64,000 bases of DNA from Arthrobacter sp. B1I2 (GTDB taxonomy: Bacteria > Actinomycetota > Actinomycetes > Actinomycetales > Micrococcaceae), in the NCBI RefSeq assembly GCF_030816485.1, contig NZ_JAUSYC010000001.1, positions 1,736,001 through 1,800,000 of the forward strand. The letters run 5' to 3'. The stretch's first letter is position 1; every line of letters starts with the position of its first letter. Under the pieces are notes generated by a model. It ran no database searches, was not told the origin of the DNA, and saw nothing but the letters and a program-made list of their open reading frames with translations. Position numbers and translations under genes: made by a program. This document shows positions 36,095-50,388 of the stretch, piece after piece.

Positions 36095-37111
36095 TCAGTC
36101 CAGGAGCGCGGAAACCGCCGGGCCCAACCTGATCTTCCCCACCGGACGGCCGCCGCCGAGCACGGGTTCAACCACCTGCTCCAGGGCGCTGGCAACTCCC
36201 GGGATCTCCACGGCCCCCGCCGCGGCAAGGAGGGTCAGGGCCACCAGCGAGGTGGCGCGGACGTTTCCATCAAGGATCTTGACCGCAACGGAAACCCCCT
36301 GGGGCGTGGCCATGGCCAGGACTCCCTCAGCCCCGATTTTGGCGATGATCTCCAGTTCGTCCATCACCAGGGTGTTGGCTTCGCCGCGGCCCTGCACCGC
36401 CCACGGGTAATCGAGCATGGAGGTGGCGATGGTGGCGGCCCTGGCGCTGAAGCTCTGGTCGCCGGGAGCCTTGGCCAAGTGGGAGTAGGCCCGGGCCAGG
36501 CCTTTCAGGGAAACAGCTGCCACCGGGGCGCCGCAGCCGTCGATCCCCAGGTGCGCGATCTTCTCGCCGGTGTATTCCTCGATGACGGTGCGGACCCGCT
36601 GCTGCAGTGGATGGTTCGGCTCCAGGTAGCTGTGCGTGTCCCACCCGTTTTCGGTGCAGGCCCAGAGGAAAGCGGCATGCTTCCCGGAACAGTTGTACGC
36701 CAGCCGCGACTTCCCCTTTTCCGAGCGCACCAACCAGTTCCGGGCCGTTTCATCCTGCGGCCAGGCTTCCGGACACTGCAGCTGGTCCTCACGGACTCCG
36801 GCCGCCTTGAGCATGCCCGCCACCACATCCATGTGGTCCAGGGATCCCGTGTGGCTTCCGCAGGCAATGGCCACCTGGGCACCCCGCAGCGGAACACCCG
36901 ACTGCATGGAGGCCAGCGCCTGGAACGGCTTGAGCGTGGATCGCGCGAAGATGGGCGTGTTGATGTCACCGAGCTCGGTGACCACCGAGCCGTCGGCGGA
37001 CAGGAGGACGGCTGAACCGATGTGCCGGGACTCCACAAAGCCACTGCGCTCGATCACGGCCAGTTCGACGGCGGAGTCCACGGTGAAGGTGGCATGCGGG
37101 TTGTGCGGCAT
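36095..37111 (-). CDS. L-asparaginase II family protein
   Basis: The 338-residue protein belongs to the asparaginase II (AnsA-type, PF06089-like) family that hydrolyses L-asparagine. Family segments are VESRHIGSAVLLSADGSVV near 30-48, FARSTLKPFQALA near 56-68, the catalytic-region IACGSHTGSLDHMDV near 86, CSGKHAAFLWACT near 146, and LGIDGCGAPVAAVSLKG near 190. There is no signal peptide, so it acts in the cytoplasm. The substrate assignment follows the family; it has not been confirmed. Confidence 0.85.
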   Translation of the reverse strand: MPHNPHATFTVDSAVELAVIERSGFVESRHIGSAVLLSADGSVVTELGDINTPIFARSTLKPFQALASMQSGVPLRGAQVAIACGSHTGSLDHMDVVAGMLKAAGVREDQLQCPEAWPQDETARNWLVRSEKGKSRLAYNCSGKHAAFLWACTENGWDTHSYLEPNHPLQQRVRTVIEEYTGEKIAHLGIDGCGAPVAAVSLKGLARAYSHLAKAPGDQSFSARAATIATSMLDYPWAVQGRGEANTLVMDELEIIAKIGAEGVLAMATPQGVSVAVKILDGNVRATSLVALTLLAAAGAVEIPGVASALEQVVEPVLGGGRPVGKIRLGPAVSALLD

Positions 37112-37169
37112 ACTGCCAGTCTATGGGCCAGCCCCGCAGATGCCCGGTCAGCCCGGCGGCGCGTAGCAG

Positions 37170-38757
37170 CTATTGCACGGTGACCATCACGGACTGCCAG
37201 CCTGATGCGCCGTCAGGGACCGGATCGGCGCGTTGGTCCGTCTGGACCTCCCCGTTCCCGTCGGTGGCCCGGACCTTGATGTAATGGGGGCCGGGTGTGG
37301 CATCCCACTCGTAGGACCACTGGCGCCAGGTGACGGTGGAAGCTTCAGTGGAGAGGGTGGCTTCCACCCAGTCGCCGTTGTCGATCTGGAGTTCCACCTT
37401 GGTGATGCCGCGCGTCTGGGCCCATGCGGTACCGCCCACGGCGACTTTCCCCGCGGGGACTTTCGCGAAGGATTTGGGCACGTCCACACGTGCCATCGTC
37501 TTAATGGGCCCGCGCTCGGACCAGCCGCGCTCTGTCCAGTAGGCCTTGCTGTCCGCGAACCGGGTGACCTCCAGGTCCACCACCCACTTTGTGGCGGAGA
37601 CGAACCCGTACAGCCCGGGAACCACCATCCGCACGGGGTAGCCGTGCTCCAGCGGCAGCGGCTCGCCGTTCATGCCGATGGCCAGCATGGCGTCCCGGTC
37701 ATCCTGCAGGACCTCCAGGGGAGTGGAGGCACTGAAGCCGTCGATTGACGTGGACAGCACCATGTCCGCCCCGTCCTTGGGCCTGGCGCGGGCCAGGACA
37801 TCGCGGATGGGAAGGCCCAGCCACTTGGCGTTTCCGGCCAGGTTGCCCCCCACGGGGTTGGATACGCAGGTCAGGGTGACTTGGGATTCGATCAGTTCGG
37901 CGTCAAGCAGGTCCTGGAACGTGAGGGTCACTTCCTGCTCCACCAGCCCATGCACACGCAGCTCCCAGTCATCAACGTTGACTTCCGGGTACGCTCAGGG
38001 CCGTATCGATGCGGTAGAACTCACCGTTGGGCGTCACCCACGGCGGAACGCCGGGGACCGGGGACTGGACCCCGGCCGGCACCGGGGCTGCGGCCCTTGC
38101 CGGCGACGGCAGGCTCAGCGCTTCCCGGGCCTGGGCCACATTGCTGCGCGCGGCAGCCAGCAGCCGTCCACCCGTTGCAGCGATGCCCGCCGCCACGGCA
38201 GTGATCCCGGCAGCAGCGAAGAAGCGGCGCCGACTGGTGCCATGGCTCCCAGCCTGTTCGCCGCCGTCGGCCGCTTTATCCGCCGGCGACTCCGGCCACG
38301 CCTTCAGCCCCCACAGCGGCACCATCAGGCGGCGGAGGACCATCAGCCCGGCGACGGTTCCCAGCACGGAAGGGATGGCGTCTGCGGCGCCCACACCCGA
38401 ACGGGTCACCACGCAGGCCACAATCACCACCCCCATGAACAGGACACCCAGGACACCCAGCGCCCATTTCCGGTAGGCCACCACGCCAAGGATGCAGGCG
38501 AGCACCGCGATCGTCAGGCCCATGCCTACGAATAGGGCCGCCTTGTCATTGGTGCCGAAGGTGGCGATCGCAAAGTCCTTCAACCTGGGCGGCGTGAAGT
38601 CGATGAAGGTGGACCCCAAGGCAAACAGCGGTGTTGCCCTGGCGGTGAAGAAGGCCCCGATCAGCTCCGCAACGGCAAGGACGACGGCGGCTGCCACCAC
38701 GCCTGCCAGTGCGGCCATGGGGGCGGGGCCGGTAATCCGTTCTCGCAGCTTTGTCAT
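37170..38757 (-). pseudogene. Membrane-anchored molybdopterin oxidoreductase, frame broken
   Basis: The reconstructed protein of about 528 residues has five to six N-terminal hydrophobic segments (for example MAALAGVVAAAVVLAVAEL and AALFVGMGLTIAVLACILG). A Tat-like RRRFFAAAG near residue 183 follows, and then a sulfite-oxidase-type molybdopterin domain. The Mo-ligating cysteine is the one in VTLTCVSNPVGG, and an immunoglobulin-like dimerisation domain ends the chain. The frame as written stops soon after DTALSVPG. Deleting one base from CCCGGAAG at 37985-37989 gives VPEVNVDDWELRVHGL and joins both ORFs; total length minus one is a multiple of three. The electron acceptor and substrate are unknown. 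It is divergent from purD. Confidence 0.83.
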
Positions 38758-38828
38758 GTGTATGGTTCGGAGCGGGCAGGAGTCCGGATTGACCCGGCGG
38801 GGGAGGACACAGCTTAGGAGCGGGAAGG

Positions 38829-40169
38829 GTGCACAAAGTACCCTTGGACACTGTGAAGGTACTCGTCATTGGCCCCGGAGGCCGCGAACACGCCATTGTC
38901 CGCTCCCTGCTTGCCGACCCCAACGTGTCCGAGGTCCACGCGGCGCCGGGCAATGCCGGCATCAGCAAGCTGGTTCCCACATACAAGATCAACGGCAACG
39001 ATCCCGAGGCGGTTGCGGAGCTGGCCACCCGGCTCGGCGTGGACCTCGTGGTGGTGGGGCCGGAGGCTCCGCTGGCCGCAGGCGTATCCGATGCCGTGCG
39101 CGACGCCGGTATCCCCGTGTTCGGGCCCAGCAAGGCAGCAGCCCAGCTGGAGGCGTCGAAGGCTTTTGCCAAGGAAGTCATGGCGGAGGCCGGCGTCCCC
39201 ACGGCCATGGCCATGGTGGCCGCCAACGCCGAGGAAGCAGCATCGGCACTGGACACCTTCGGCGCCCCGTACGTGGTGAAGGACGATGGGCTCGCCGCAG
39301 GCAAGGGCGTGGTGGTCACCCGGGACCGCGACGAAGCCCTGGCGCACGCGCAGTCCTGCTTCGACGCCGGCGGCTCGGTGGTCATCGAGGAATTCCTGGA
39401 CGGCCCGGAAGTCTCCTTGTTTGTCCTCTGCGATGGGCAGAACACGGTGGCGCTCTCGCCCGCCCAGGACTTCAAGCGCATCTTCGACAACGACGAAGGG
39501 CCCAATACCGGCGGCATGGGCGCCTACACGCCGCTCGAGTGGGCCCCCGAGGGACTGGTGCAGGAAGTCCTTGAACGGGTAGCCCAGCCCACCGTCAACG
39601 AAATGGCCCGCCGCGGCACTCCGTTCGTCGGCGTGCTGTTCGTCGGCCTGGCCCTCACGTCGCGCGGCACCCGCGTCATCGAATTCAACGTCCGCTTTGG
39701 CGACCCCGAAACCCAGGCGGTCCTCGCCCGGCTCAAGACCCCCCTCGGTGCGCTGCTCATGGCAGCCGCCAAGGGCGAACTGGACAAGGCAGAAGAGCTG
39801 CGTTGGGCCAAGGAAACCGCCGTCGCCGTTGTTATCGCCTCGGAGAACTACCCGGACACACCCCGCACCGGCGACCGCATCCGCGGGCTCAAGAAGGTGG
39901 AGGAACTCGACGGCGTGCACGTCATCCACGCCGGAACTGCCCTGGATGAGGAAGGCAAAGTAGTGTCCGCCGGCGGGCGGGTCCTGGCCGTCGTCGCCCT
40001 GGGCGGCGACCTGGTGGAGGCACGCGAGAAAGCGTACGACGGCGTCGAGCTGGTCAAGCTGGACGGATCCCAGTTCCGCACCGACATCGGACGCAAAGCC
40101 GCCCGCGGGGAAATCAAGGTGCCGTACGGTGCCACGGGCGCGATGCCCATCGTGAAAGCAAAGGCCTGA
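38829..40169 (+). CDS. purD: Phosphoribosylamine-glycine ligase
   Basis: The 446-residue ATP-grasp enzyme makes glycinamide ribonucleotide in purine biosynthesis. It has VLVIGPGGREHAIVRSLL at the N-terminus, the ATP-grasp segment APYVVKDDGLAAGKGVVV near 150, EEFLDGPEVSLFVLCDG near 185 and GDPETQAVLARLKTPL near 295. The GTG at 38829 has AGGAG spaced about seven bases upstream; the later GTG at 38853 directly before the conserved chain lacks a site. It is followed after three bases by purC. Confidence 0.95.
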   Translation: MHKVPLDTVKVLVIGPGGREHAIVRSLLADPNVSEVHAAPGNAGISKLVPTYKINGNDPEAVAELATRLGVDLVVVGPEAPLAAGVSDAVRDAGIPVFGPSKAAAQLEASKAFAKEVMAEAGVPTAMAMVAANAEEAASALDTFGAPYVVKDDGLAAGKGVVVTRDRDEALAHAQSCFDAGGSVVIEEFLDGPEVSLFVLCDGQNTVALSPAQDFKRIFDNDEGPNTGGMGAYTPLEWAPEGLVQEVLERVAQPTVNEMARRGTPFVGVLFVGLALTSRGTRVIEFNVRFGDPETQAVLARLKTPLGALLMAAAKGELDKAEELRWAKETAVAVVIASENYPDTPRTGDRIRGLKKVEELDGVHVIHAGTALDEEGKVVSAGGRVLAVVALGGDLVEAREKAYDGVELVKLDGSQFRTDIGRKAARGEIKVPYGATGAMPIVKAKA

Positions 40170-40172
40170 CCT

Positions 40173-41111
40173 ATGACTGCAACCCCAGAGAACCGCGGCT
40201 ACGCCACCAAAACCCTGGACCTGCCGGGCTGGACGCACATCTACTCCGGCAAGGTGCGCGACCTCTACGAACCCGCCGACGAGTCCATCCTGCAGCGCCT
40301 TGGGCAGGATTGCGTGCTGGTGGTGGCCAGCGACCGGATCAGCGCCTACGACCACGTGCTGTCCAGTGAAATCCCGGACAAGGGGCGGATCCTCACCCAG
40401 TTGAGCCTCTGGTGGTTCGACCAGCTGGGTGTGGAACACCACGTGCTCGGTTCCACATTGGAGGACGGTGTGCCGGCTGAGGTCGAAGGGCGGGCCATGA
40501 TCTGCAAGAAGCTGGACATGTTCCCGGTGGAGTGCATTGCCCGCGGCTACCTCACGGGTTCCGGGCTGCAGGAATACAAGGCCTCCGGTACGGTGTGCAA
40601 CATTCCGCTGCCGGAAGGGCTGGTGGACGGGTCCAGGCTCGAGCACGCCATCTTCACGCCCTCGGCGAAGGCCCTGGTTGGTGAGCACGACGAGAACATC
40701 ACCTACGACGCCGTGGTGGCCCTGGTGGGGGACGACATCGCCGGCCGACTGAGCGAGCTGACGCTCAAGATCTACACAACGGCGGAAAAGATCACCCGGG
40801 AGCGCGGCATCATCCTGGCCGACACCAAGGTGGAGTTCGGCTACGATGCGGTTTCAGGGTCAATCACCCTGGGCGACGAGGTGCTGACCCCGGATTCCTC
40901 GCGTTTCTGGGACGCCGCCACCTATAAGCCGGGCCAGGCCCAGCCTTCCTACGACAAGCAGTATGTGCGGGACTGGCTGACCTCGGCCGGGTCCGGCTGG
41001 GACAGGTCCTCGGACACCCCTCCGCCGGCGCTGCCCGCGGACGTGGTGGAGCGTACCCGGAGCAGGTACGTCGAAGCGTACGAGAAGATCACCGGCGAGA
41101 AGTTTTCCTAG
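40173..41111 (+). CDS. purC: Phosphoribosylaminoimidazole-succinocarboxamide synthase
   Basis: The 312-residue SAICAR synthase has SGKVRDLYE near residue 25, VVASDRISAYDHVLSSEIPD near 50-69, the ribosyl-phosphate site CIARGYLTGSGLQEY near 122, and TAEKITRERGIILADTKVEFG near 205. It is in an operon with purD, so the two genes supply de novo purine synthesis just outside the catabolic island. A hairpin follows the stop. Confidence 0.95.
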   Translation: MTATPENRGYATKTLDLPGWTHIYSGKVRDLYEPADESILQRLGQDCVLVVASDRISAYDHVLSSEIPDKGRILTQLSLWWFDQLGVEHHVLGSTLEDGVPAEVEGRAMICKKLDMFPVECIARGYLTGSGLQEYKASGTVCNIPLPEGLVDGSRLEHAIFTPSAKALVGEHDENITYDAVVALVGDDIAGRLSELTLKIYTTAEKITRERGIILADTKVEFGYDAVSGSITLGDEVLTPDSSRFWDAATYKPGQAQPSYDKQYVRDWLTSAGSGWDRSSDTPPPALPADVVERTRSRYVEAYEKITGEKFS

Positions 41112-41120
41112 ATCAGACTG

Positions 41121-41158
41121 AAGCCAGGTAAGCCCGCTCCGGTGGGTTTGCCTGGCTT
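41121..41158. terminator. Hairpin between purC and the HTH-TPR gene
   Basis: AAGCCAGGTAAGCCC at 41121-41135 pairs with GGGTTTGCCTGGCTT at 41144-41158, with two G-T wobbles. It lies between converging genes and could stop transcription from both sides. Confidence 0.7.
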
Positions 41159-41161
41159 TGG

Positions 41162-42427
41162 TCAGCTGGCTTTCGCAGCCGCCTCGGCCCGTTTCTGTGC
41201 CAGTTTGATCTCAAGGATCGCGTCCAGCGCCTGCTGGACCCTGTCCTGTGCACCTGCCGCAGCGAAGGCCTTCTGGGCTTCCTCGAGATGCACCAGCGCC
41301 TCCTCGGTTTCTCCAGAGGCCTTCAAGGACTTGCCAAGCAGCAGTGAGACCTCCCCGGCTGTGTGCTTGGCGAGCTCCCCACGCTCGGCGTGGATTTCGC
41401 GAAGTTTTTCGACGGCGGCAACGATGTCTCCGGTCAGGTACAGCCAGCGGGCTCGAATGAACGCGACCTCGAGCTGATCTGACTTGTTTCCACCGACAAT
41501 GGACAACGCCAGTTCTGCCCTCTCGATTGATGACAGCGTCTCCGGCTCCACGATGCCCGAGGAAAGCCGAACGGCTGCGGAGGCCTTGTTGAACCGTGCC
41601 CACAGTTCGATGTCGTTGGCGGGAGAGAGCAGGCGGGCAGCCCGCTCGTGGTGCTTGACGCCTTCCGCGTAGTCGTGGCGCATAAAAGCCACGTTTCCTA
41701 CAACCCACGCCACCTCTCCGGCAAGCTGGCTCATTGACAGCTCGTCAACGTGATCGATCATCGCCTGGCAATATTTCCAGGCCTCGTCCAGCCGTCCGCT
41801 TTCAGCGAGAGCACCGATCAGAGCATGATGGGCGTTGATGATCAGGGTGGAGCCCTTTGGGAGTTGCTTGCAGAGGTCCACAGCCTGGATCCCCTGGTCC
41901 ACGGCAAGGCTAAGCTGGCCTTGTCCCTGGTAGATGCCGGCCAGCATCTGGTGGGCCCGAACGGCAAGGCCAGCCGATTCCCTGGCCATGGGGTGCTCCA
42001 GCAGGTGCTCCATGATCTTCTGCGCTTCGCGCCAGTTTCCCTGCTTGATGAGGCATTCAGCCTGCATGTACGTCATGTTCCACCACGCACTGGTGTTTCG
42101 CCCCTCAAGGGCAATCTTCGCAGCTGTGGCAGCATGGCTTGCTGCCAGGGGATAGTCACGAAGGTCCCACGCCTGCCGTGCGTAGAGGCCTGCCAGGACG
42201 TATTCAGCGTCGCTCACGGAAATAGGTTGGCTCCACGCCTCCAGAGCCTTGGGCGCCAACTCCAGCCTCCGCGCCAATTCTTCAATTACTTCAGCCGTCG
42301 GTTCCCGGCGGCCGGTTTCGAGCAGCGAAATGTAGCTGGGTGAATACAGGTCCTTGCCCAGTTCGGCCTGCGTCAGTCCACGCTCAAGGCGCTCCGCGCG
42401 GAGTTTTTCTCCGAACCCGTTGCCCAC
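41162..42427 (-). CDS. Xre-type HTH and TPR transcriptional regulator (RRNPP-like)
   Basis: The 421-residue protein has an N-terminal Xre/Cro helix-turn-helix at about residues 5-60, with LRAERLERGLTQAELGKDLY and YISLLETGRREPTAEVIEEL. The rest is a chain of tetratricopeptide-type helix pairs, such as WWNMTYMQAECLIKQGNWRE near 110, AHQMLAGIYQGQGQLSLAV near 157, HHALIGALAESGRLDEAW near 200 and LLGKSLKASGETEEALVHLE near 365. HTH plus TPR is the architecture of peptide-sensing RRNPP regulators. The GTG at 42427 is chosen because AAGGAGGAAA ends six bases before it; an in-frame ATG at 42448 would place that site inside the gene. It is divergent from the peptide gene across 129 bp. Peptide sensing is an inference from architecture and context. 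Confidence 0.8.
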   Translation of the reverse strand: MGNGFGEKLRAERLERGLTQAELGKDLYSPSYISLLETGRREPTAEVIEELARRLELAPKALEAWSQPISVSDAEYVLAGLYARQAWDLRDYPLAASHAATAAKIALEGRNTSAWWNMTYMQAECLIKQGNWREAQKIMEHLLEHPMARESAGLAVRAHQMLAGIYQGQGQLSLAVDQGIQAVDLCKQLPKGSTLIINAHHALIGALAESGRLDEAWKYCQAMIDHVDELSMSQLAGEVAWVVGNVAFMRHDYAEGVKHHERAARLLSPANDIELWARFNKASAAVRLSSGIVEPETLSSIERAELALSIVGGNKSDQLEVAFIRARWLYLTGDIVAAVEKLREIHAERGELAKHTAGEVSLLLGKSLKASGETEEALVHLEEAQKAFAAAGAQDRVQQALDAILEIKLAQKRAEAAAKAS

Positions 42428-42465
42428 GCGTTTCCTCCTTCTGGCCATTTAGGCCCGCCGAATGC

Positions 42466-42505
42466 TTGACAGCCCCTGTGGAAAATATTTTACAATGTGT
42501 GTCAA
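42466..42505 (+). promoter_or_regulatory. Peptide-gene promoter with AAAATATTTT palindrome
   Basis: TTGACA at 42466-42471 and TACAAT at 42491-42496 look like -35 and -10 boxes for the peptide gene, with a rather long 19-base spacer. A perfect 10-bp palindrome, AAAATATTTT at 42482-42491, lies in that spacer, and TGTCAA at 42500-42505 mirrors the -35 box. The region is much richer in A/T than its surroundings and is a natural binding site for the divergent HTH regulator. Confidence 0.5.
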
Positions 42506-42556
42506 CAAGGACAGTGCTGGCTTTGTAACGAATCCGACTCGTATTGAGGAACTTAT

Positions 42557-42775
42557 ATGTTGAAGAAGATCGCAACCGCGGCCGTCCTGGCTGGGGCCCT
42601 GGCTTTTTCTGCGGCGGCTCCGGCCGTCCTGTCTGCAGGTTCCGTCGCCGATAATTCGGGTGCGTCGGTAGCTGTAGGTAACTGGCCTGATCCCGCCTCC
42701 GGAAAGGTGAAGAAGGACAAAAAGACCGACACCACCGTCACCACGTACGTGGGCAACTGGCCTGATCCCGCATAA
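42557..42775 (+). CDS. Secreted 72-residue precursor with twin VGNWPDPA motifs
   Basis: The protein begins with a typical signal peptide: Lys-Lys at residues 3-4, a hydrophobic core to about residue 22, and possible cleavage after LSA or SVA near residues 27-31. The motif VGNWPDPA occurs at residues 40-47 and again at 65-72, where it forms the exact C-terminus. The link between the copies contains five lysines (GKVKKDKK) and a Thr-rich segment. The ATG follows GAGGA with a seven-base spacer. I know no family with this motif. The layout resembles precursors of secreted signalling peptides, and its divergent neighbour is an HTH-TPR regulator. A simple cell-envelope or stress peptide remains possible. 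Confidence 0.75.
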   Translation: MLKKIATAAVLAGALAFSAAAPAVLSAGSVADNSGASVAVGNWPDPASGKVKKDKKTDTTVTTYVGNWPDPA

Positions 42776-42804
42776 CCAGCTTCCTCACACCAGGAGGCGA
42801 GGGC

Positions 42805-42840
42805 GGCCCCGGAGCAACAGCTCCGGGGCCGTTCCTTTTA
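42805..42840 (+). terminator. Intrinsic terminator of the peptide gene
   Basis: An 11-bp GC-rich stem, GGCCCCGGAGC (42805-42815) and GCTCCGGGGCC (42820-42830), with a four-base loop is followed by GTTCCTTTTA. This is a textbook rho-independent terminator 30 bp after the peptide gene's stop, implying a short dedicated transcript. Confidence 0.88.
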
Positions 42841-42880
42841 ACCTGGAGGATACTGGCTGTGACCTAATTGAGATACAACA

Positions 42881-42910
42881 AGAGGGTCTCCGCAAGGAGA
42901 CCCTCTTTTT
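42881..42910. terminator. Terminator near tRNA-Pro
   Basis: AGAGGGTCTCC (42881-42891) pairs with GGAGACCCTCT (42896-42906) around GCAA, followed on the plus strand by TTTT. On the minus strand it lies just after the tRNA gene and is followed by a weaker TTGTTGT tract, so it probably ends the tRNA transcript and also backs up the peptide-gene terminator. Confidence 0.8.
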
Positions 42911-42914
42911 GTAA

Positions 42915-42991
<77 letters not shown>

Positions 42992-43074
42992 ATCCGCTGC
43001 AAAAGCAACTTTACAAGGATAGCCGATCCCGGGCCCCTATGCGAAATCCTCGGCCGCCCTACCGAAGACGCGCT

Positions 43075-44901
43075 TTAGACCAGGGACTCTTTCCACGCCC
43101 CGTGCAGGTCGGCGAAGCGCCCGCCGCCGCCGATCAATTCCTCAGGGGTGCCATCCTCCACGATCCGTCCGTCGTGCACCACCAGGACGCGGTCAGCCGT
43201 CTCCACTGTGGACAGCCGGTGCGCGATGATCAGCGCCGTCCTGCGTGCCGCCTCCGTGCCGGCGAGCAGCCGGGCCAGCCCGGCCTGCACAAGGCGTTCG
43301 GACGGGATGTCCAAAGAGGACGTGGCCTCATCCAGGATCAGGACTGCCGGCTTGGCCAGGAAAGCCCTGGCGAAGCTGATCAGCTGCCGCTGCCCGGAGG
43401 AAACCCTGCCGCCGCGCTTGTTGACGTCCGTGTCGTAGCCTTCGGGGAGTTCCAGGATGAACTCGTGGGCGCCCACTGCCTTGGCCGCCTCTTCTATTTC
43501 CGCACGGGACGCTTCCGGCCGGCCCAAAGCGATGTTGTCCGCCACCGAGCCGCTGAACAGGAAAGCTTCCTGGGTCACCATCACGATGTTACGGCGGAGG
43601 TCGGAAGTGGCCAGGGCACGAAGGTCCACGCCATCAAGGGTCAGTGTGCCTGACGTGACGTCGTAGAACCTGGCAATGAGTTTGGCCAGGGTGGACTTTC
43701 CTGCACCGGTCTGCCCCACCAGCGCCACGGTCTGCCCGGCCGGGATCTGCAGGTCCAGGCGGGGGACCACCAGCGGGCCGTCACCGTAGCGGAACTCGAC
43801 GCCCCTGAAGTCAATGCGCCCAGTGGCGCTGGGCAGGGCCACCGGGTTCTTCGGGGGCCGGACCGTGGGCACCTCTTCGAGGAGTCCGGACACCTTCTCC
43901 AGGGCTGCCTGCGCGCTCTGGAACGAGTTGTAGAACATGGCCATCTGGTCCACCGGCTGGAAGAACCGCTTGGTGGAGAGGATGAGGGCCAGGAGTACGC
44001 CCACGGCCAGGTCGCCGCCCAGTACGCGGAATCCGCCGAAGAGCAGGACGACGGCCACGCAGACGTTGCCGATCAGCACCAGGCCCGGCTGGAAGATGCC
44101 GTTGAGGTTGATGGAGCGGACGGTGACCAGGCGGTAGTCCTCGGCGAGTTTCCCGTAGCGCTCCGAGTTTTCCTTCTCTTTGCGGAACGCCTTCACTGCG
44201 CGGATGCCGGTCATGGTTTCCACGAAATGCACGATCAGCCGGGCGGAGACCACGCGGGATTCACGGAAGGCGATCTGGGAGTGCTTCTGGTACCAGCGGG
44301 ACAGGAAGAACATGGGCACGCCGGCAGCCAGCACCAGCAGGCCGCTCCGCCAGTCCAAGGCAAAGATGGTGACGGCGGTAAAGGCCATGAAGAGCATTCC
44401 CGAGGCGAGGGAGCTGACCCCCGAATCGAGGAGTTCGCGCAGTGCCTCCAGGTCCGAGGTTTGCCGGGCGATGATCCGGCCGGAAGTGTACCTTTCGTGG
44501 AACTCCAGGCTGAGCCGCTGCGTGTGCCGGAACACGCGCACCCTCAGGTCCAGCAGCATCGCCTGGCTAAGGCGCGCAGTGGAGGTGACGTACAGGGCGG
44601 TGAGCCCCGCCGTCGTAATGGCTGCCAGGAGGTAGGCGACGCCGGTGATCACCAGTGGGAGGTTGTCGCCGGCCTGAATGGCGGGAAGGGCATGGTCGAT
44701 CCCGAAGGCGATCAGCGCAGGGCCTGCCACCCGTGCGGCCTGGGAAAGGACCACCATGGCGATGGTCAGCCAGAACCGTACCCGCACCGGACGGATCAGC
44801 GAGCCCAGCAAGGCGAGTGACCGCCGCCGGACGGCCCTGCTGTCGCTCTTGCTGAGGTGGGCGTTGTCTTCGTTGGCGGTGCCGAACGTTGCGCTGCTCA
44901 T
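43075..44901 (-). CDS. ABC exporter half, membrane and ATPase domains fused
   Basis: The 608-residue protein has a six-helix exporter domain to about residue 330, followed by an ATPase domain. The Walker A motif is [15 protein letters not shown] near 400, the Q-loop [18 protein letters not shown] near 442, the signature [19 protein letters not shown] near 500 and Walker [14 protein letters not shown]. It starts within the stop of the upstream ABC gene (ATGA overlap), so the two form a heterodimer. Substrates of such pairs include drugs, lipids and peptides; nothing here decides between them. Confidence 0.9.
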
Positions 44902-46706
44902 CGGGTCACTTCCTCAGCCTGGTCTTCCAGTGCCGACAGTTCGGAGTCCAGGTCCCGCGGTTCCGGGTCCAGGCTGGCGATGACGTACCGGTAATGGTGG
45001 TTGCTGGCCAGGAGTTCCGTGTGCGTTCCGACGGCGGTGATGCGGCCGTCCTCGAGCAGGGCCACCCTGTCAGCGAGGGCCACAGTGGACGGCCGATGGG
45101 CCACGATCAGGGTGGTGGTGTCCTTCAGGACCTCGCGGAGCCGCGCCTCCACCAGTTCCTCGGTGTGCACGTCCAGGGCGGACAGCGGATCGTCCAGGAC
45201 AAGGACGCGTGGGCGGGCGGCGATGGCGCGTGCCAGGGCGATCCGCTGGCGCTGTCCGCCGGACAGGCTCAGGCCTTCCTCGCCGATCAACGTGTCCACG
45301 CCCTCGGGCAGGGAGTACGCGAAGTGCGCCTGCGCCACGTCGAGCGCTTCGTCCAGGACCTCCTCGGAGCGGACCGGGGCGCCGAGCAGGACGTTGTCCC
45401 GTACGGAGTTGGAGAAGAGCGTGGTGTCCTCGAAGGCCACGCCCACGACCCTGCGCAGTTCCTCCACGTCGAAGTCCCGGATGTCGATTCCGTCGATGGT
45501 GATTGCACCGCTGGTGACGTCATACAGGCGGGGCACCAGCTGGATCAGCGCGCTTTTGCCGCTGCCGGTGATGCCCACCAGGGCCATCGTTTCACCGGGC
45601 CGGACGTCCAGGTTGATGTCCTTCAGGATTGGCTTATCCGGTGCGTCCTCGAAGGCAAAGGTGGCGTTGTTGAAGTGGAGCGCACCGGCCAGTTCGCTTG
45701 GGTTGCGGGGCTCGGCCGGGCTGGTGATGGTGTTCTCCGTGTCCATAACTTCGTAGTGGCGGTCGACGGCGGTCTTGGCAGTCAGTGCCATGGCCAGGAG
45801 CATGCCGGAGAACTCCACAGGGGAGGCGATGACAGCCGCGGTGGCGAAGAACGCCACCAGGGCACCAATGCTCAGCTGCCCGCTGGCGCACAGCATGACT
45901 CCCACCACCAGCCCGGCTCCCAGCGCGAGCTCGGGAAGCAGGGTGACCACCATGGTGAACGTTGCCTGGTGGCGCGCCTTTTCGATCTCGGTCTGGCGCA
46001 GTTCCTCCGCCTGCTCATTGAAGTTTTCCAGGGCCTCGCGGCTGCGGCCGAATGCCTTGAGCACGCGGATGCCGTGGACCGATTCCTCCACGGTGGTGGC
46101 GAGGTCGCCGGCCTGGTCCTGGCTGCGCCGTGCCACCTTGCTGAACCGGGTGCGGAACCGGAAGCTGTTGATGGTGATGGGAACGGCGGCGGCGAGGAAG
46201 ATCAGGGCCAGCTGCCAGCTCATGGCGAACATGGCCGCGATGCCGATAATCACGGTAAGGGTGGTAACCACCAGCATGATGGCGCCAAAGGCCATCCATC
46301 GGCGCAGGAAGTTGAGGTCCGTCATGGCCCGGGACAGCAGCTGGCCGGAGCCCCACCGGTCGTGGAAGGAGACCGTCAGGTCCTGCAGGTGGTCGTACAG
46401 GGACACCCGCATCCGGGTCTCAACGGTGGTGGCAGGGTTGATGACGAACTGCCGGCGCAGCGCCACCAGTCCCGCTTCGGCGACGCCGAGGACCAGGATC
46501 ACGGCTGCAGAAGTCCAGACCGCGTCCGGGCTGCCCCCTGGCTGCAGAACAGTGTTGACCAGGACCCTCAACACCTGGGGGATGGTCAGGGCCACGATGC
46601 TGGCCAGGAGAGCGCAAAGGAGCCCCAGCAGGAGCCTGGGGATGATCGGCCGGACGTGCGGATAAAGACGGCTGATGGATCGAAAAAATGGAGTCTGCTT
46701 GGCCAT
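44898..46706 (-). CDS. ABC exporter half, partner subunit
   Basis: The 602-residue protein has the same layout as its partner. Walker A is [20 protein letters not shown] near 375, the signature [18 protein letters not shown] near 475 and Walker [20 protein letters not shown] near 497. In this subunit the residue after Walker B is Asp (LDDP) rather than Glu, which often marks the degenerate site of a heterodimeric exporter. That fits pairing with the downstream subunit, whose motif reads LDEAT. An inverted repeat, GTAGTT-N9-AACTAC, lies upstream. Confidence 0.9.
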
Positions 46707-46733
46707 GCCCGCTTCTCAAGCTCTAAATCGAAT

Positions 46734-46754
46734 GTAGTTTCCTCTAGCAACTAC
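46734..46754. promoter_or_regulatory. Inverted repeat upstream of the ABC exporter
   Basis: GTAGTT (46734-46739) and AACTAC (46749-46754) flank nine bases, 28-48 bp before the exporter start. MarR-type regulators often bind such sites in front of paired exporters, but no MarR gene is adjacent. Confidence 0.4.
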
Positions 46755-46901
46755 CCTATGCCATGGCGTGAGACGGTTCACAGTAGTCATGGCGCCCGCC
46801 GACTGCTTGCCCAGTTATTGCAGACCGTAATCCCGCTTGCCCTATCAGATCTGGTCCCTAAACCCCGGTTATGACAACCACATCTGATGGAGCAACAGGG
46901 G

Positions 46902-47846
46902 TCAGTTGCGGGAGGTAAGGGTCAGCAGGACGGCCTCGGGTTTGCAGGCGATCCTTACCGGGGCGAAGCGCGAGGTGCCGATGCCGCCTGAGACGTTGAC
47001 CGGCGTCGTGCTTCCGTTGCTTGACCAGTCGTTGAGGCCTTTTGCACGCCAGGTGGGAAGGTCGCAGTTGGCGACGACGGCGCCGTACCCGGGGATGCAC
47101 AACTGGCCGCCGTGCGTGTGGCCAGCCAGCAGGAGGTCCGCTCCGCTTTCGGTGAAGTGGTCCAGCACCCGCTGGTAGGGGGCGTGGATGACGGCAACCC
47201 GAAGATGGTCATTCGCGTCCTGGCTGACCGTTCCGCGCGGCCAGCCGGCATACCGCTCCCGGTTCAGGTGCGGGTCATCGACGCCCGAGAAGTCGAAGCG
47301 CATGCCGTTGAGGACCAATGACTGGTGGCGGTTGGTCAGGTCCACCCAGCCACTCATGCCGAAGCCCGAGCGCAGGCGCGGCCAGTCGAGGGCAACCGGC
47401 TTGGGCTTCGCCCTGGATGGTCCAAGCAAGTAGGACGCAGGGTTCTTCGGGCTGGGCGCGAAGTAGTCGTTGGAGCCCGGGACAAAGACGCCGGGGAACT
47501 GCAGCAGCGGCTTCAAGGCATCCAGCAGCGGGTCCACGGCCTTGACGTGGCTGAGGTTGTCGCCGGTGTTGACCACCAGGTCCGGCCGTAGGTCCGCCAG
47601 CGACCCAAGCCAGTCCGCTTTCTTCTTCTGTCCGGGCACGAAATGGATATCGCTCAGGTGCAGAATCCGAAAAGGGGCCCGGCCCGGCGGCAGGATGGCC
47701 AGGGTTTCCTCGCGAAGGACGAACTGGTTCTTCTCCCACAGGCCGTAGCCGAACGCAGCCATCCCGGCCGCGGTGCCGGCGCCGGCAGTGACGGCAAAGC
47801 CGCGCCCGATTGCGCGGGCGCGGCTTGCCAGGCTATCGATGCTCAT
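46902..47846 (-). CDS. Metallophosphoesterase, membrane-anchored
   Basis: The 314-residue protein has an N-terminal hydrophobic stretch, GFAVTAGAGTAAGMAAFGYG, then a calcineurin-type phosphoesterase domain. The metal motifs are LHLSDIHFVPG near residue 62, VNTGDNLSH near 92, GSNDYF near 122, and LLAGHTHGGQLCIPGYGAV near 240. Similar YkuE-like proteins act on lipid-linked or nucleotide phosphates, but the substrate is unknown. It begins six bases after the PBP stop and forms an operon with it. Confidence 0.87.
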   Translation of the reverse strand: MSIDSLASRARAIGRGFAVTAGAGTAAGMAAFGYGLWEKNQFVLREETLAILPPGRAPFRILHLSDIHFVPGQKKKADWLGSLADLRPDLVVNTGDNLSHVKAVDPLLDALKPLLQFPGVFVPGSNDYFAPSPKNPASYLLGPSRAKPKPVALDWPRLRSGFGMSGWVDLTNRHQSLVLNGMRFDFSGVDDPHLNRERYAGWPRGTVSQDANDHLRVAVIHAPYQRVLDHFTESGADLLLAGHTHGGQLCIPGYGAVVANCDLPTWRAKGLNDWSSNGSTTPVNVSGGIGTSRFAPVRIACKPEAVLLTLTSRN

Positions 47847-47852
47847 GCGCGT

Positions 47853-50195
47853 TTAGCCGTTTCCTTTTCCGTTGCCGTTACTGTTCCCGTTGCTGCTGGG
47901 TGCAGGGGCAGGGGCCGGGGCCGGCGCCTGGGTAGCGGGAGCCTGCGTTGCCTGCGGGGCCGGGGCGGGAGCCTGGGTTGACTGCGGAGCGGTGGTGGCG
48001 GGGGTGGTGTTCCGGGTGGTTCCGTTGATCATGTTGCTTGGCGGCGCGGGGAAGGGATTGGTTCCATAGGCGGGAGCGACCTTGGCCATGTAGGTGGAGA
48101 ACATGGGGCCGGCGATCATGTAGCCGTCAATGCCCTCGTAAAACTTTCCGTTGACAGTGATGTTCTGTCCCGCGCGGTCCTGGGCACCCAGCGGATCGCC
48201 GAACCAGGCGGCGGTGGCAAGGCCGGTGGTGTGGCCAACAACCCAGGTGGACCCGTTGTTGTTTGACGTACCGGTCTTGGCACCAATGGGGAAGCTGGTG
48301 GTCGTGGAAATCCGCGGCCGGATCAACGAACCCGAACCCCGGTTCAGGACTTCCTGCAGCGCATAGTTCACACCTCGGGCAACCTCTGGCTTGATGGCGT
48401 CGCGGCAACTGCTGGTCTGCGCGGGCAGTTGCTTTCCGGTGGCGTCCGTAACCGAGGAGATGGCGATCGGTTCGCAGTACTTGCCGTCGTTGGCGAACGT
48501 GGCAAATGCGCTGGCCATAGTCAGCGGCGCGGTCTGGGTGGAACCCAGCAGGTTGCCCAGGGTCATCATGTTCACCTTGGGGTTCGGCTCGCTGCCGTCA
48601 GCTGAGGGCAAACCGCTGTGCAGCCCTACGGCATCCACGATCTTCTGGATACCGCAGAAGTCCAGCTGCGCGGCCGAGGCGAACGTCACGGTGTTGATGG
48701 AGTTGTAGAGGCCCTCCAGGACGGTCAAGGGACGGTACCACTTGGTCTCAGCGTTCTGCAGGTCATCGGCCGCGTCCAGGCCTGCGTTCTTCTGCGCCGT
48801 ACTGTAGGCGCCCTGTACCTTGCCGCAGGTGTTCCGCCAGGGGTAGCCCACCGGGTAGACGCGCTGGGCTGCGTTGACCACGGTGTTCATGGTCTTGCCC
48901 TCGTTAAGCCACTCGGCAAACGTGAACGGCTTCATGGTGGACCCGGGCTGGGCGCCGCCCATGCCGTTGAGGTCGTTGCCGTCCTTATCCAGCTTGTCCA
49001 CGTTGAAGTTCAGCTGCGAGTCAAAGCCCTGGCCAGGCAGGAACGTGGTGTTCTGGGCCATGGAGATGATCTTGCCGGTGCCGGGCTGCACGGATACCAT
49101 CGCCGCGCCCCACTTGTCCGGGTTGGCGCCGGCGGCGGCGTTGGCCTGCTCCTGGGCGGCCGCCTGGGCGCTCGGATCGAGTGTGGTGGTAATGGTCAGG
49201 CCGCCACCGTAGATGAGCCGCTGCCGTTCCTTCACGTCCGCTCCGTAAGCCGAATTGTTCTCCAGCAGGTGCAGGATGTAGTCGCAGAAGTACGGGGCAG
49301 AGGCCGCGTAGGCGCAGCCCTGCTTGGGCTGGGTGACCTTGGGCTCCACCGGGGTGGCTACGGCGGCATCGTGCTCCGCCTGGGTGATCTTGTTCTGGTT
49401 AAGCATCAGTCCCAGCACCAGGTCCCGGCGCTGCTTGGACTTCTCCGGATTCGTGATGGGGTCAAAGGCGGAGGGACTGTTCACCAGGCCGGCCAGGAGC
49501 GCTGCCTGCGGCAGGGTCAGATCCTTTGAGGTGGTGCTGAAGAAGTACCGGGAAGCGGCCTCAATGCCATATGCGTCACGGTTGAAGAACACGATGTTCA
49601 GGTAGCCCTCAAGGATCTGGTCCTTGCTGAACTCCTTCTCCAGGGCGATGGCAAGCTTCATTTCGCGCAGCTTGTCGCCCACGCCCTTGTTGACACCGTT
49701 GAGCTTGATCTGGTCCTCTTCGCCCGCGGCCGCGAGGTTCGAGTTGAGCACGTTGTTGACGTACTGCTGCGTGATGGTGGAGGCGCCCTGCTTGTTGCCG
49801 CTCGCAGTGGCGACCAGTGCACGCAGGATGCCGGTGGTGTCAACGCCGCCGTGATCGTAGAACCTGCTGTCCTCGACGGCGATGATGGCTTTCTTCATGT
49901 TCGGCGAAATTTGGTCCAGCGGAACCTTGGTGCGGTTCTCCGTGTAGACGTTGGCGATCTCGCTGCCGTCCGCAGCCAGGATCCGGGTGGTCTGGCTCGG
50001 GGGATCAACCTTCAGTTCCGCCGGAAGGGAGTCGAAAAAGTCGATGGAACCGCTTGCCGCACTGCCGGAGACGGCCGCCGCGGGGACCAGCAGGCCCGCC
50101 ACGAGGACACCGCAAATCGCGCTCACACCAAGGAAAAGAAGAATCTTACCCAGTGTGGTGGCAGTGTCGAATAAGGGGTTGTTGCGAGTCGCCAT
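47853..50195 (-). CDS. Class A penicillin-binding protein (glycosyltransferase/transpeptidase)
   Basis: The 780-residue bifunctional enzyme polymerises and cross-links peptidoglycan. A membrane helix lies near residues 18-42. The GT51 domain has EDSRFYDHGGVD near 108, GASTITQQYVNNVL near 135 and EFSKDQILEGYLN near 185. The transpeptidase has SxxK as GSTMKPF near 430, SIN in YNSINTVTF near 520, and KTG in IGAKTGTSNNN near 655. A Pro/Ala/Thr/Gln-rich tail of about 60 residues ends the chain. The ATG at 50195 is chosen; the longer open frame upstream overlaps the divergent DUF4177 gene and has no conserved sequence. Confidence 0.93.
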   Translation of the reverse strand: MATRNNPLFDTATTLGKILLFLGVSAICGVLVAGLLVPAAAVSGSAASGSIDFFDSLPAELKVDPPSQTTRILAADGSEIANVYTENRTKVPLDQISPNMKKAIIAVEDSRFYDHGGVDTTGILRALVATASGNKQGASTITQQYVNNVLNSNLAAAGEEDQIKLNGVNKGVGDKLREMKLAIALEKEFSKDQILEGYLNIVFFNRDAYGIEAASRYFFSTTSKDLTLPQAALLAGLVNSPSAFDPITNPEKSKQRRDLVLGLMLNQNKITQAEHDAAVATPVEPKVTQPKQGCAYAASAPYFCDYILHLLENNSAYGADVKERQRLIYGGGLTITTTLDPSAQAAAQEQANAAAGANPDKWGAAMVSVQPGTGKIISMAQNTTFLPGQGFDSQLNFNVDKLDKDGNDLNGMGGAQPGSTMKPFTFAEWLNEGKTMNTVVNAAQRVYPVGYPWRNTCGKVQGAYSTAQKNAGLDAADDLQNAETKWYRPLTVLEGLYNSINTVTFASAAQLDFCGIQKIVDAVGLHSGLPSADGSEPNPKVNMMTLGNLLGSTQTAPLTMASAFATFANDGKYCEPIAISSVTDATGKQLPAQTSSCRDAIKPEVARGVNYALQEVLNRGSGSLIRPRISTTTSFPIGAKTGTSNNNGSTWVVGHTTGLATAAWFGDPLGAQDRAGQNITVNGKFYEGIDGYMIAGPMFSTYMAKVAPAYGTNPFPAPPSNMINGTTRNTTPATTAPQSTQAPAPAPQATQAPATQAPAPAPAPAPSSNGNSNGNGKGNG

Positions 50196-50232
50196 GTTTT
50201 CCACTTTACCGGCAACGACTACGCTTTCTCTC

Positions 50233-50388
50233 ATGACCAAATGGGAGTACGCGACGATTCCGCTCATTATCCACGCCACAAAGCAGATCCTGGACCAGTG
50301 GGGAGAGGACGGCTGGGAGCTCGTCCAGGTTGTCCCCGGACCTGACGGCAACGGCCTTGTCGCCTACCTCAAGAGGGAGAAGCAGTAG
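50233..50388 (+). CDS. DUF4177-family small protein
   Basis: This 51-residue protein fits DUF4177 in length and pattern: KWEYATIPLI at the start, ILDQWGEDGWELVQVVPGPDG in the middle and YLKREK at the end. The function of the family is unknown. The ATG at 50233 sits at the conserved start (MTKWEYA). It is separated by one base from the RidA-family gene and probably leads a three-gene operon with RidA and NUDIX, divergent from the PBP gene. Confidence 0.82.
   Translation: MTKWEYATIPLIIHATKQILDQWGEDGWELVQVVPGPDGNGLVAYLKREKQ

Follow-up and report, generated by a model that had tools for sequence, protein, structure and literature searches.

We analyzed a 64,000-nucleotide window of Arthrobacter sp. 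B1I2 (bases 1736001-1800000 of contig 1, in a 4.68-Mb genome) and found in it a divergent gene pair that is quite probably a working peptide-pheromone system of the RRNPP kind, similar to Phr or NprX signaling. One gene encodes a protein with an N-terminal Xre-type helix-turn-helix (HTH) and a C-terminal superhelix of tetratricopeptide repeats (TPR), the putative receptor. The other encodes a small propeptide with a Sec-type leader and the octapeptide VGNWPDPA in two copies, the second at its C-terminus, and the two genes share one promoter/operator-like element. That the pair works like an RRNPP system is well supported, and the likeness is one of function, not of established descent. An earlier sequence-only reading had proposed peptide signaling of this type, and the hallmarks of the predicted propeptide (Sec-type leader, C-terminal location of the motif, tandem copies, and concerted change between them) support that idea. 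The features of the locus, in window positions, are the following.

41162-42427, minus strand: receptor/regulator gene, N-terminal Xre-type HTH and C-terminal TPR superhelix, 421 amino acids from GTG 42427
42466-42505, no strand assigned: 40-bp promoter/operator-like element TTGACA-N17-TTTACA-N5-TGTCAA in the divergent gap, conserved in relatives
42557-42775, plus strand: propeptide gene, 72 amino acids, Sec-type leader and two octapeptide copies
42557-42637, plus strand: Sec-type signal peptide, about residues 1-27, read from the sequence, with a predicted cleavage site; the leaders of relatives are similar
42674-42697, plus strand: putative pheromone copy 1, VGNWPDPA, residues 40-47, a sequence motif
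42749-42772, plus strand: putative pheromone copy 2, VGNWPDPA, residues 65-72, ending at the stop codon
42799-42837, plus strand: strong hairpin 3' of the propeptide gene, a probable terminator by its folding z-score
42915-42991, minus strand: tRNA-Pro(CGG) gene, border of the locus

A check of open reading frames (ORFs) placed both genes where the sequence-only reading had put them. The regulator ORF is open from an ATG at 42448 (41162-42448, minus strand, 428 amino acids). However, GTG 42427 is the likely start, because the Shine-Dalgarno sequence AGGAGG falls inside the first codons of the longer reading and because most homologues begin at M/V-G-x-x-FG, matching this GTG. An AGGAG- or GGAGG-like Shine-Dalgarno sequence accompanies the later start in 80 of 80 named relatives, and with this start the previously described divergent gap of 129 bp is reproduced. 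The domain assignment also held: Pfam HTH_31/HTH_3 (residues 12-71) and TPR_12/TPR_2 scored above cut-off, residues 78-427 form a chain of paired helices in an AlphaFold model, and a structural comparison gave matches that include RapI and NprR. None of the RRNPP-specific models matched the regulator. The 72-residue partner appears, as had been proposed, to be a signal-peptide protein with a twin motif; it has a KK-hydrophobic-AxA leader of Sec type, which we judged by reading the sequence, while leaders at other loci were judged by rule or by eye.

Conservation of the pair was assessed in 37 genomes of the same genus (our own included) and in 80 named records of Arthrobacter, Pseudarthrobacter, and Paenarthrobacter, the best 80 of 309. 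The sets have 13 loci in common and so comprise 104 distinct loci of 117. A receptor orthologue was present in all 36 of the other genomes (77-97% identity); by receptor, the nearest relatives among the named records were Arthrobacter sp. 135MFCol5.1 (97%) and a Pseudarthrobacter (96%). The divergent propeptide lay beside the receptor in 37/37 genomes and in 80/80 named records, 77 of the latter by a fixed rule and 3 in truncated form. In these three (L097, L102, and L105) a stop codon follows octapeptide copy 1 and a disturbed remnant of copy 2 lies downstream. They keep the receptor and the 40-bp element and are possibly single-copy or altered-signal variants. A wider same-genus sample, counted by eye, had the receptor plus at least two motif matches in 77 of 77 genomes.

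Receptor homologues without a small ORF nearby, or a peptide gene widespread without the regulator, had been named in advance as observations that would count against the signaling idea. Within the genus, none of the 117 loci lacked the small ORF, the three truncated cases included. Outside it such loci do exist: by the rule, a propeptide is missing from 37 of the 106 remaining distinct loci, although six of these (L035-L038, L188, and L189) show one to the eye. As to the second observation, the genera without the receptor yielded a single genome (G182), with two motif matches on opposite strands by eye.

We scored 79 propeptides, the one in the window and 78 of the 80 named ones; L121 and L137 were excluded by the start rule though a propeptide is present. 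They contain 197 octapeptide copies, with one copy in 4 genes, two in 46, three in 15, and four in 14, and the octapeptide reaches the stop codon in 76 of the 79. Positions 2, 4, 5, 6, and 7 are G, W, P, D, and P in 197/197 copies, while at position 3 there are 194 copies with N and 3 with I. This invariant core is encoded with synonymous variation (four codons each for Gly and Pro, two for Asp). Peptides were identical in 152 of 175 within-gene copy pairs, and 142 of these 152 differed in their bases. It is generally known that GC-rich DNA is rich in short ORFs, and a chance ORF could therefore have come to lie next to an ordinary Xre-TPR regulator. Such an origin is refuted for the genus by the 197 copies with their invariant core and synonymous variation, the rule scored below 1 percent in shuffled controls, and we consider chance a negligible prospect.

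The variable residues of the octapeptide mostly change jointly across all copies of one gene. The first residue was the same in 169/175 within-gene copy pairs (0.55 when copies were shuffled, a control that leaves species relatedness in) and the last in 160/175 (0.77 when shuffled in the same way). For example, L016 has TGIWPDPM in both copies. Peptides have also diverged where receptors have: L054, among the most diverged receptors (77% identity), accompanies SGNWPYPV, G425 (77%) has GNWPYP twice, and G399 (80%) has GNWPNP twice. These data favor a short processed signal, because such a signal predicts an invariant core, C-terminal copies, and concerted change, none of which follows from a linker or a structural protein. 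At one locus (L108, 3102-3362) three copies read GIWPDPM and a fourth reads GNWPDPM, and these copies are perhaps in the middle of homogenization.

The gap between the two genes contains TTGACA-N17-TTTACA-N5-TGTCAA at 117/117 same-genus loci with an HTH receptor. Eight loci of other genera were tested as well, and four of them have the outer repeat TTGACA-N28-TGTCAA (six under a relaxed rule). The inner symmetry of the element was not significant (0.059), and only the outer TTGACA/TGTCAA inverted repeat is upheld. In our genome the element is unique at zero mismatches, and an operator search returned the locus itself and one site with three mismatches. The element probably serves both as promoter and as operator. 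The propeptide gene had been credited with its own promoter and terminator. A consensus promoter scan returned nothing at its thresholds; however, the conserved 40-bp element includes TTGACA...TACAAT. The hairpin at 42799-42837 is strong (z of -7.0 in a 70-base stretch), but it is followed by a short T run only and is missing from the terminator scan; the hairpin listed there, for both strands, lies at 42880-42907.

The conserved element has an autoregulatory look, and one could suppose that the HTH-TPR protein only regulates expression of the propeptide while the peptide is read by a membrane sensor of the Agr or Com kind, as histidine kinases do for many Gram-positive peptides. Against this, none of the nine neighboring ORFs scanned encodes a histidine kinase or response regulator, and in other genera and families the partner of the propeptide is again a TPR protein, a one-sided comparison in that the loci were fetched by receptor. 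Moreover, the ends of the peptide co-vary weakly with receptor columns (134-176 for the first residue, 181-238 for the last), which serves as a lead only, given 6 and 5 label changes, an uncorrected number of columns, and linked sites that could share gene conversion. We regard the membrane-sensor explanation as very unlikely.

The mechanism that we propose for the pheromone system takes export, processing, import, binding, and regulon from RRNPP precedents. The propeptide would be exported by Sec and its leader removed, and proteases would free the octapeptide xGNWPDPz (VGNWPDPA here), which would build up with cell density. An Opp-type permease would then take it in, and it would bind the regulator on its concave TPR surface. 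Binding may alter the hold of the regulator on the 40-bp element and so change how strongly the propeptide gene, the regulator, and possibly further genes are transcribed.

A variant of this scheme is that the cell uses the propeptide to monitor its own secretion, proteolysis, or envelope state and not population density. Some same-genus genomes encode, elsewhere, small ORFs with one to four GNWPDP copies, all on the minus strand and with no evident leader: L058 4025-4402, L059 3993-4199, L060 3383-3592, L061 3946-4131, and L062 4031-4135. Since these bear the same octapeptide, it might also be released inside cells. The linked propeptide, however, has a Sec-type leader in the listed relatives, and the RRNPP precedents are exported and then re-imported. 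The same-cell explanation shares the receptor mechanism with the pheromone system and differs in use only, so the odds of the two overlap; as a separate account we give it a small chance. The leaderless ORF of L061 also holds a GWWPDLM copy and thus mixes both motif types. Those of L059, L060, and L061 come after a gene for a protein without a Pfam match, and the preceding proteins of L059 and L060 are Pro/Ala-rich and 33% identical.

Seventeen same-genus genomes also carry a TPR paralogue whose match to the receptor begins at query residue 64-83 (37-45% identity). No HTH was found by Pfam in the eight such proteins scanned (L031, L036, L040, L043, L044, and L046, plus L176 and the second receptor of L082, from g52). 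TPR models remained below cut-off in these proteins, and their homology to the receptor rests on sequence search and alignment. The HTH-less receptor faces a small leader-bearing ORF at 17 of 17 loci, 13 of them by the rule (L035-L038 otherwise), and the peptide motif there is GWWP[N/D/H], in some cases YWPN or WWPN, in one to five copies. The outer repeat of the gap element occurred at 0 of these 17 loci; the element thus tracks HTH-bearing receptors (117/117) and not HTH-less ones. A GGDEF gene was present by motif within the fetched stretch at all 17 (L031-L047), and the single neighbor scanned has a HAMP-GGDEF-EAL architecture. It could be speculated, by analogy, that the HTH-less paralogue of these related strains, with its GWWPN-type peptide, makes Rap-like protein contacts, perhaps with the neighboring GGDEF-EAL enzyme, and so acts on cyclic di-GMP turnover.

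The pair extends well beyond the genus. In the family, the receptor (E<=1e-20) was present in 221/395 genomes and 17/32 genera, and the pair was also observed in 11 other genera. Their peptides include IGNWPDPM x5 (L063), VGNWPDP[SATF] x4 (L071), VGIWPN x2 (L072), PGNWPD x3 (L073), VGNWPDAV x5 (L074), PGIWPD x3 (L075), VGEWPH x2 (L078), VG[DN]WPH x8 (L079), KVGNWPDG x3 with DDWPH (L082), AVGNWPDR x5 (L179), and LVNWWPN (L192). Another family of the same order has GGSWPT x3 (L181) and SDTWPA (L182). Across the class, 84/345 genomes and 39/126 genera have a match at E<=1e-12, some of these matches covering the HTH only. Opposite many of the loci fetched there lies an ORF with a leader, about 40 amino acids or slightly longer, that ends in WPGMCC, DFCC, YCC, or the like. 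Such C-terminal CC peptides, seen beside many receptors of other actinobacterial families (L203-L225 and L279-L305), are possibly linked by disulfides or metal.

We formulated a pairing rule, a divergent leader-bearing ORF with a WP or CC end, and compared it with shuffled sequence. The rule was satisfied at 193/236 fetched receptor loci versus 31/4720 shuffles, and at 169/209 distinct loci versus 28/4180; L175 and L229, which have no receptor by rule, and L202, with its short upstream sequence, stand apart in this count. Outside the same-genus HTH sets it was satisfied at 69/106 distinct loci (four of them further same-genus loci) versus 18/2120 shuffles. After the rule was fixed we applied it to new loci as a hold-out. 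Family f35 gave 18/26 versus 3/900 shuffles, and a Streptomyces-type genus (g132, inferred to be Streptomyces) gave 9/28 versus 8/900. These figures exclude the previously seen L281, L282, L287, and L288 of f35 and L261 and L273 of the Streptomyces-type genus; the raw counts were 21/30 and 9/30. At Streptomyces-type loci together with three plasmid loci, D/E-[ILVM]-x-WP occurred on the divergent strand in 10/40, on the other strand in 1/40, and in 3/800 simple shuffles, with L226/L261 and L231/L273 being the same loci counted twice. No propeptide was recovered by the rule at 7/7 second receptors of genus g28, at the g43 locus, at 2 of the 3 g45 loci scored, or at 19 of the 28 new Streptomyces-type loci. 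These may be solo receptors, or their peptides may lie outside the reach of the rule.

These wider data also bear on whether the small secreted protein is itself an effector (antimicrobial, or binding to envelope or metal), with the divergent regulator controlling its gene and sensing something else. Divergent regulator-target pairs are common, as is generally known, and metal binding is conceivable for the CC ends of other families. However, the copies are very short, usually C-terminal, and mostly change in concert; diverged receptors have diverged peptides; and the HTH-less receptors retain the same kind of divergent partner. In addition, the nine neighboring ORFs scanned (36098-50351) include no peptide-modification enzyme, though two ABC transporter genes are among them. 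An effector role is therefore unlikely.

The remaining surroundings of the locus are ordinary and comprise genes for asparaginase II, a molybdopterin oxidoreductase domain, purD, purC, tRNA-Pro, two ABC transporters, a phosphoesterase, and a penicillin-binding protein. The two adjacent ABC transporter genes (43075-46706, minus strand), past tRNA-Pro, may serve peptide export or reflect mere synteny. Nine SBP_bac_5 proteins are encoded in the genome, which fits import by an Opp-type permease but is not specific for it. A third motif match in the genome (L083) lies in a frame that is not propeptide-like and was taken as chance. We also considered a mobile-element origin and rejected it: a search of 50,697 phage records yielded no homologue of the receptor, and viral contigs gave none that was confirmed. 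Receptor matches did occur in 37 plasmid records (35 Streptomyces, 1 Embleya, and 1 Kitasatospora), each below 60% identity. Three plasmid loci were inspected, and in two of them the divergent strand encodes DIGWP, with no clear leader.

The HTH-less receptor type, with its other pherotype near a GGDEF gene, and the WP and CC peptides across the class go beyond what the sequence-only reading had proposed. Related pairs in many Actinobacteria suggest that this group, regarded as communicating mainly through small molecules, also has a peptide language. We lean, by a little, towards a single ancient family in which intracellular TPR receptors are paired with secreted pheromones across the class Actinomycetes, the Streptomyces type included, with two chemistries (xWP and C-terminal CC), lineage pherotypes, orphan leaderless ORFs, and an HTH-less branch tied to cyclic di-GMP, in parallel to RRNPP of Firmicutes. 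If true, such a widespread family would provide a genetically encoded and directly testable signal for Arthrobacter, Streptomyces, and relatives, of use in waking silent gene clusters and in studies of soil-community specificity and pheromone-receptor co-change. The octapeptides are open to immediate synthesis and testing.

Among the matches listed in the open-licence PMC literature, a scope that leaves subscription papers and preprints aside, we found no paper describing these peptides or RRNPP-type pairs in Actinomycetota. According to excerpts of a search in Firmicutes, nearly all members of the RRNPP family are in Bacilli (PMC9765709), and one survey describes actinobacterial signals as typically small molecules (PMC10075063, in excerpt). 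The text of PMC13136126 contains no word that starts with 'peptide'. Like gamma-butyrolactone and LuxR-type signaling of Actinobacteria (PMC4748050, in excerpt), the proposed system would serve population signaling in the same phylum, but with a different signal chemistry and different receptor folds. Leaderless communication peptides (PMC10518010, in excerpt) resemble the leaderless pheromone-bearing ORFs of L058-L062; here, however, such ORFs are extra, unlinked, and mostly contain repeats, whereas the linked gene has a leader. The HTH-less receptors, each with its own propeptide, recall Rap-Phr systems, which include duplicated Phr pheromones (PMC11343458, in excerpt). Phr105 has one internal and one C-terminal copy in that source, comparable to the one to four identical or slightly changed copies here. 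Unlike Rap-Phr, the HTH-less loci have a GGDEF gene as neighbor (17/17), and an HTH-receptor locus of another genus (L079) reaches eight copies. A further parallel is with the RRNPP/RRNPPA systems themselves (NprR-NprX, PlcR-PapR, Rgg-SHP, PrgX, and AimR-AimP). There an HTH and TPR receptor is encoded beside a short propeptide that is exported and carries the active peptide, a mature pheromone of about 5-10 residues, in or close to its C-terminal end, and the genes described here predict a similar arrangement. The pair described here differs from them in belonging to Actinomycetota, in its divergent order with a conserved promoter/operator-like element, and in its peptides, which are of the xGNWPDPz, GWWPN, DIxWP, and CC types.
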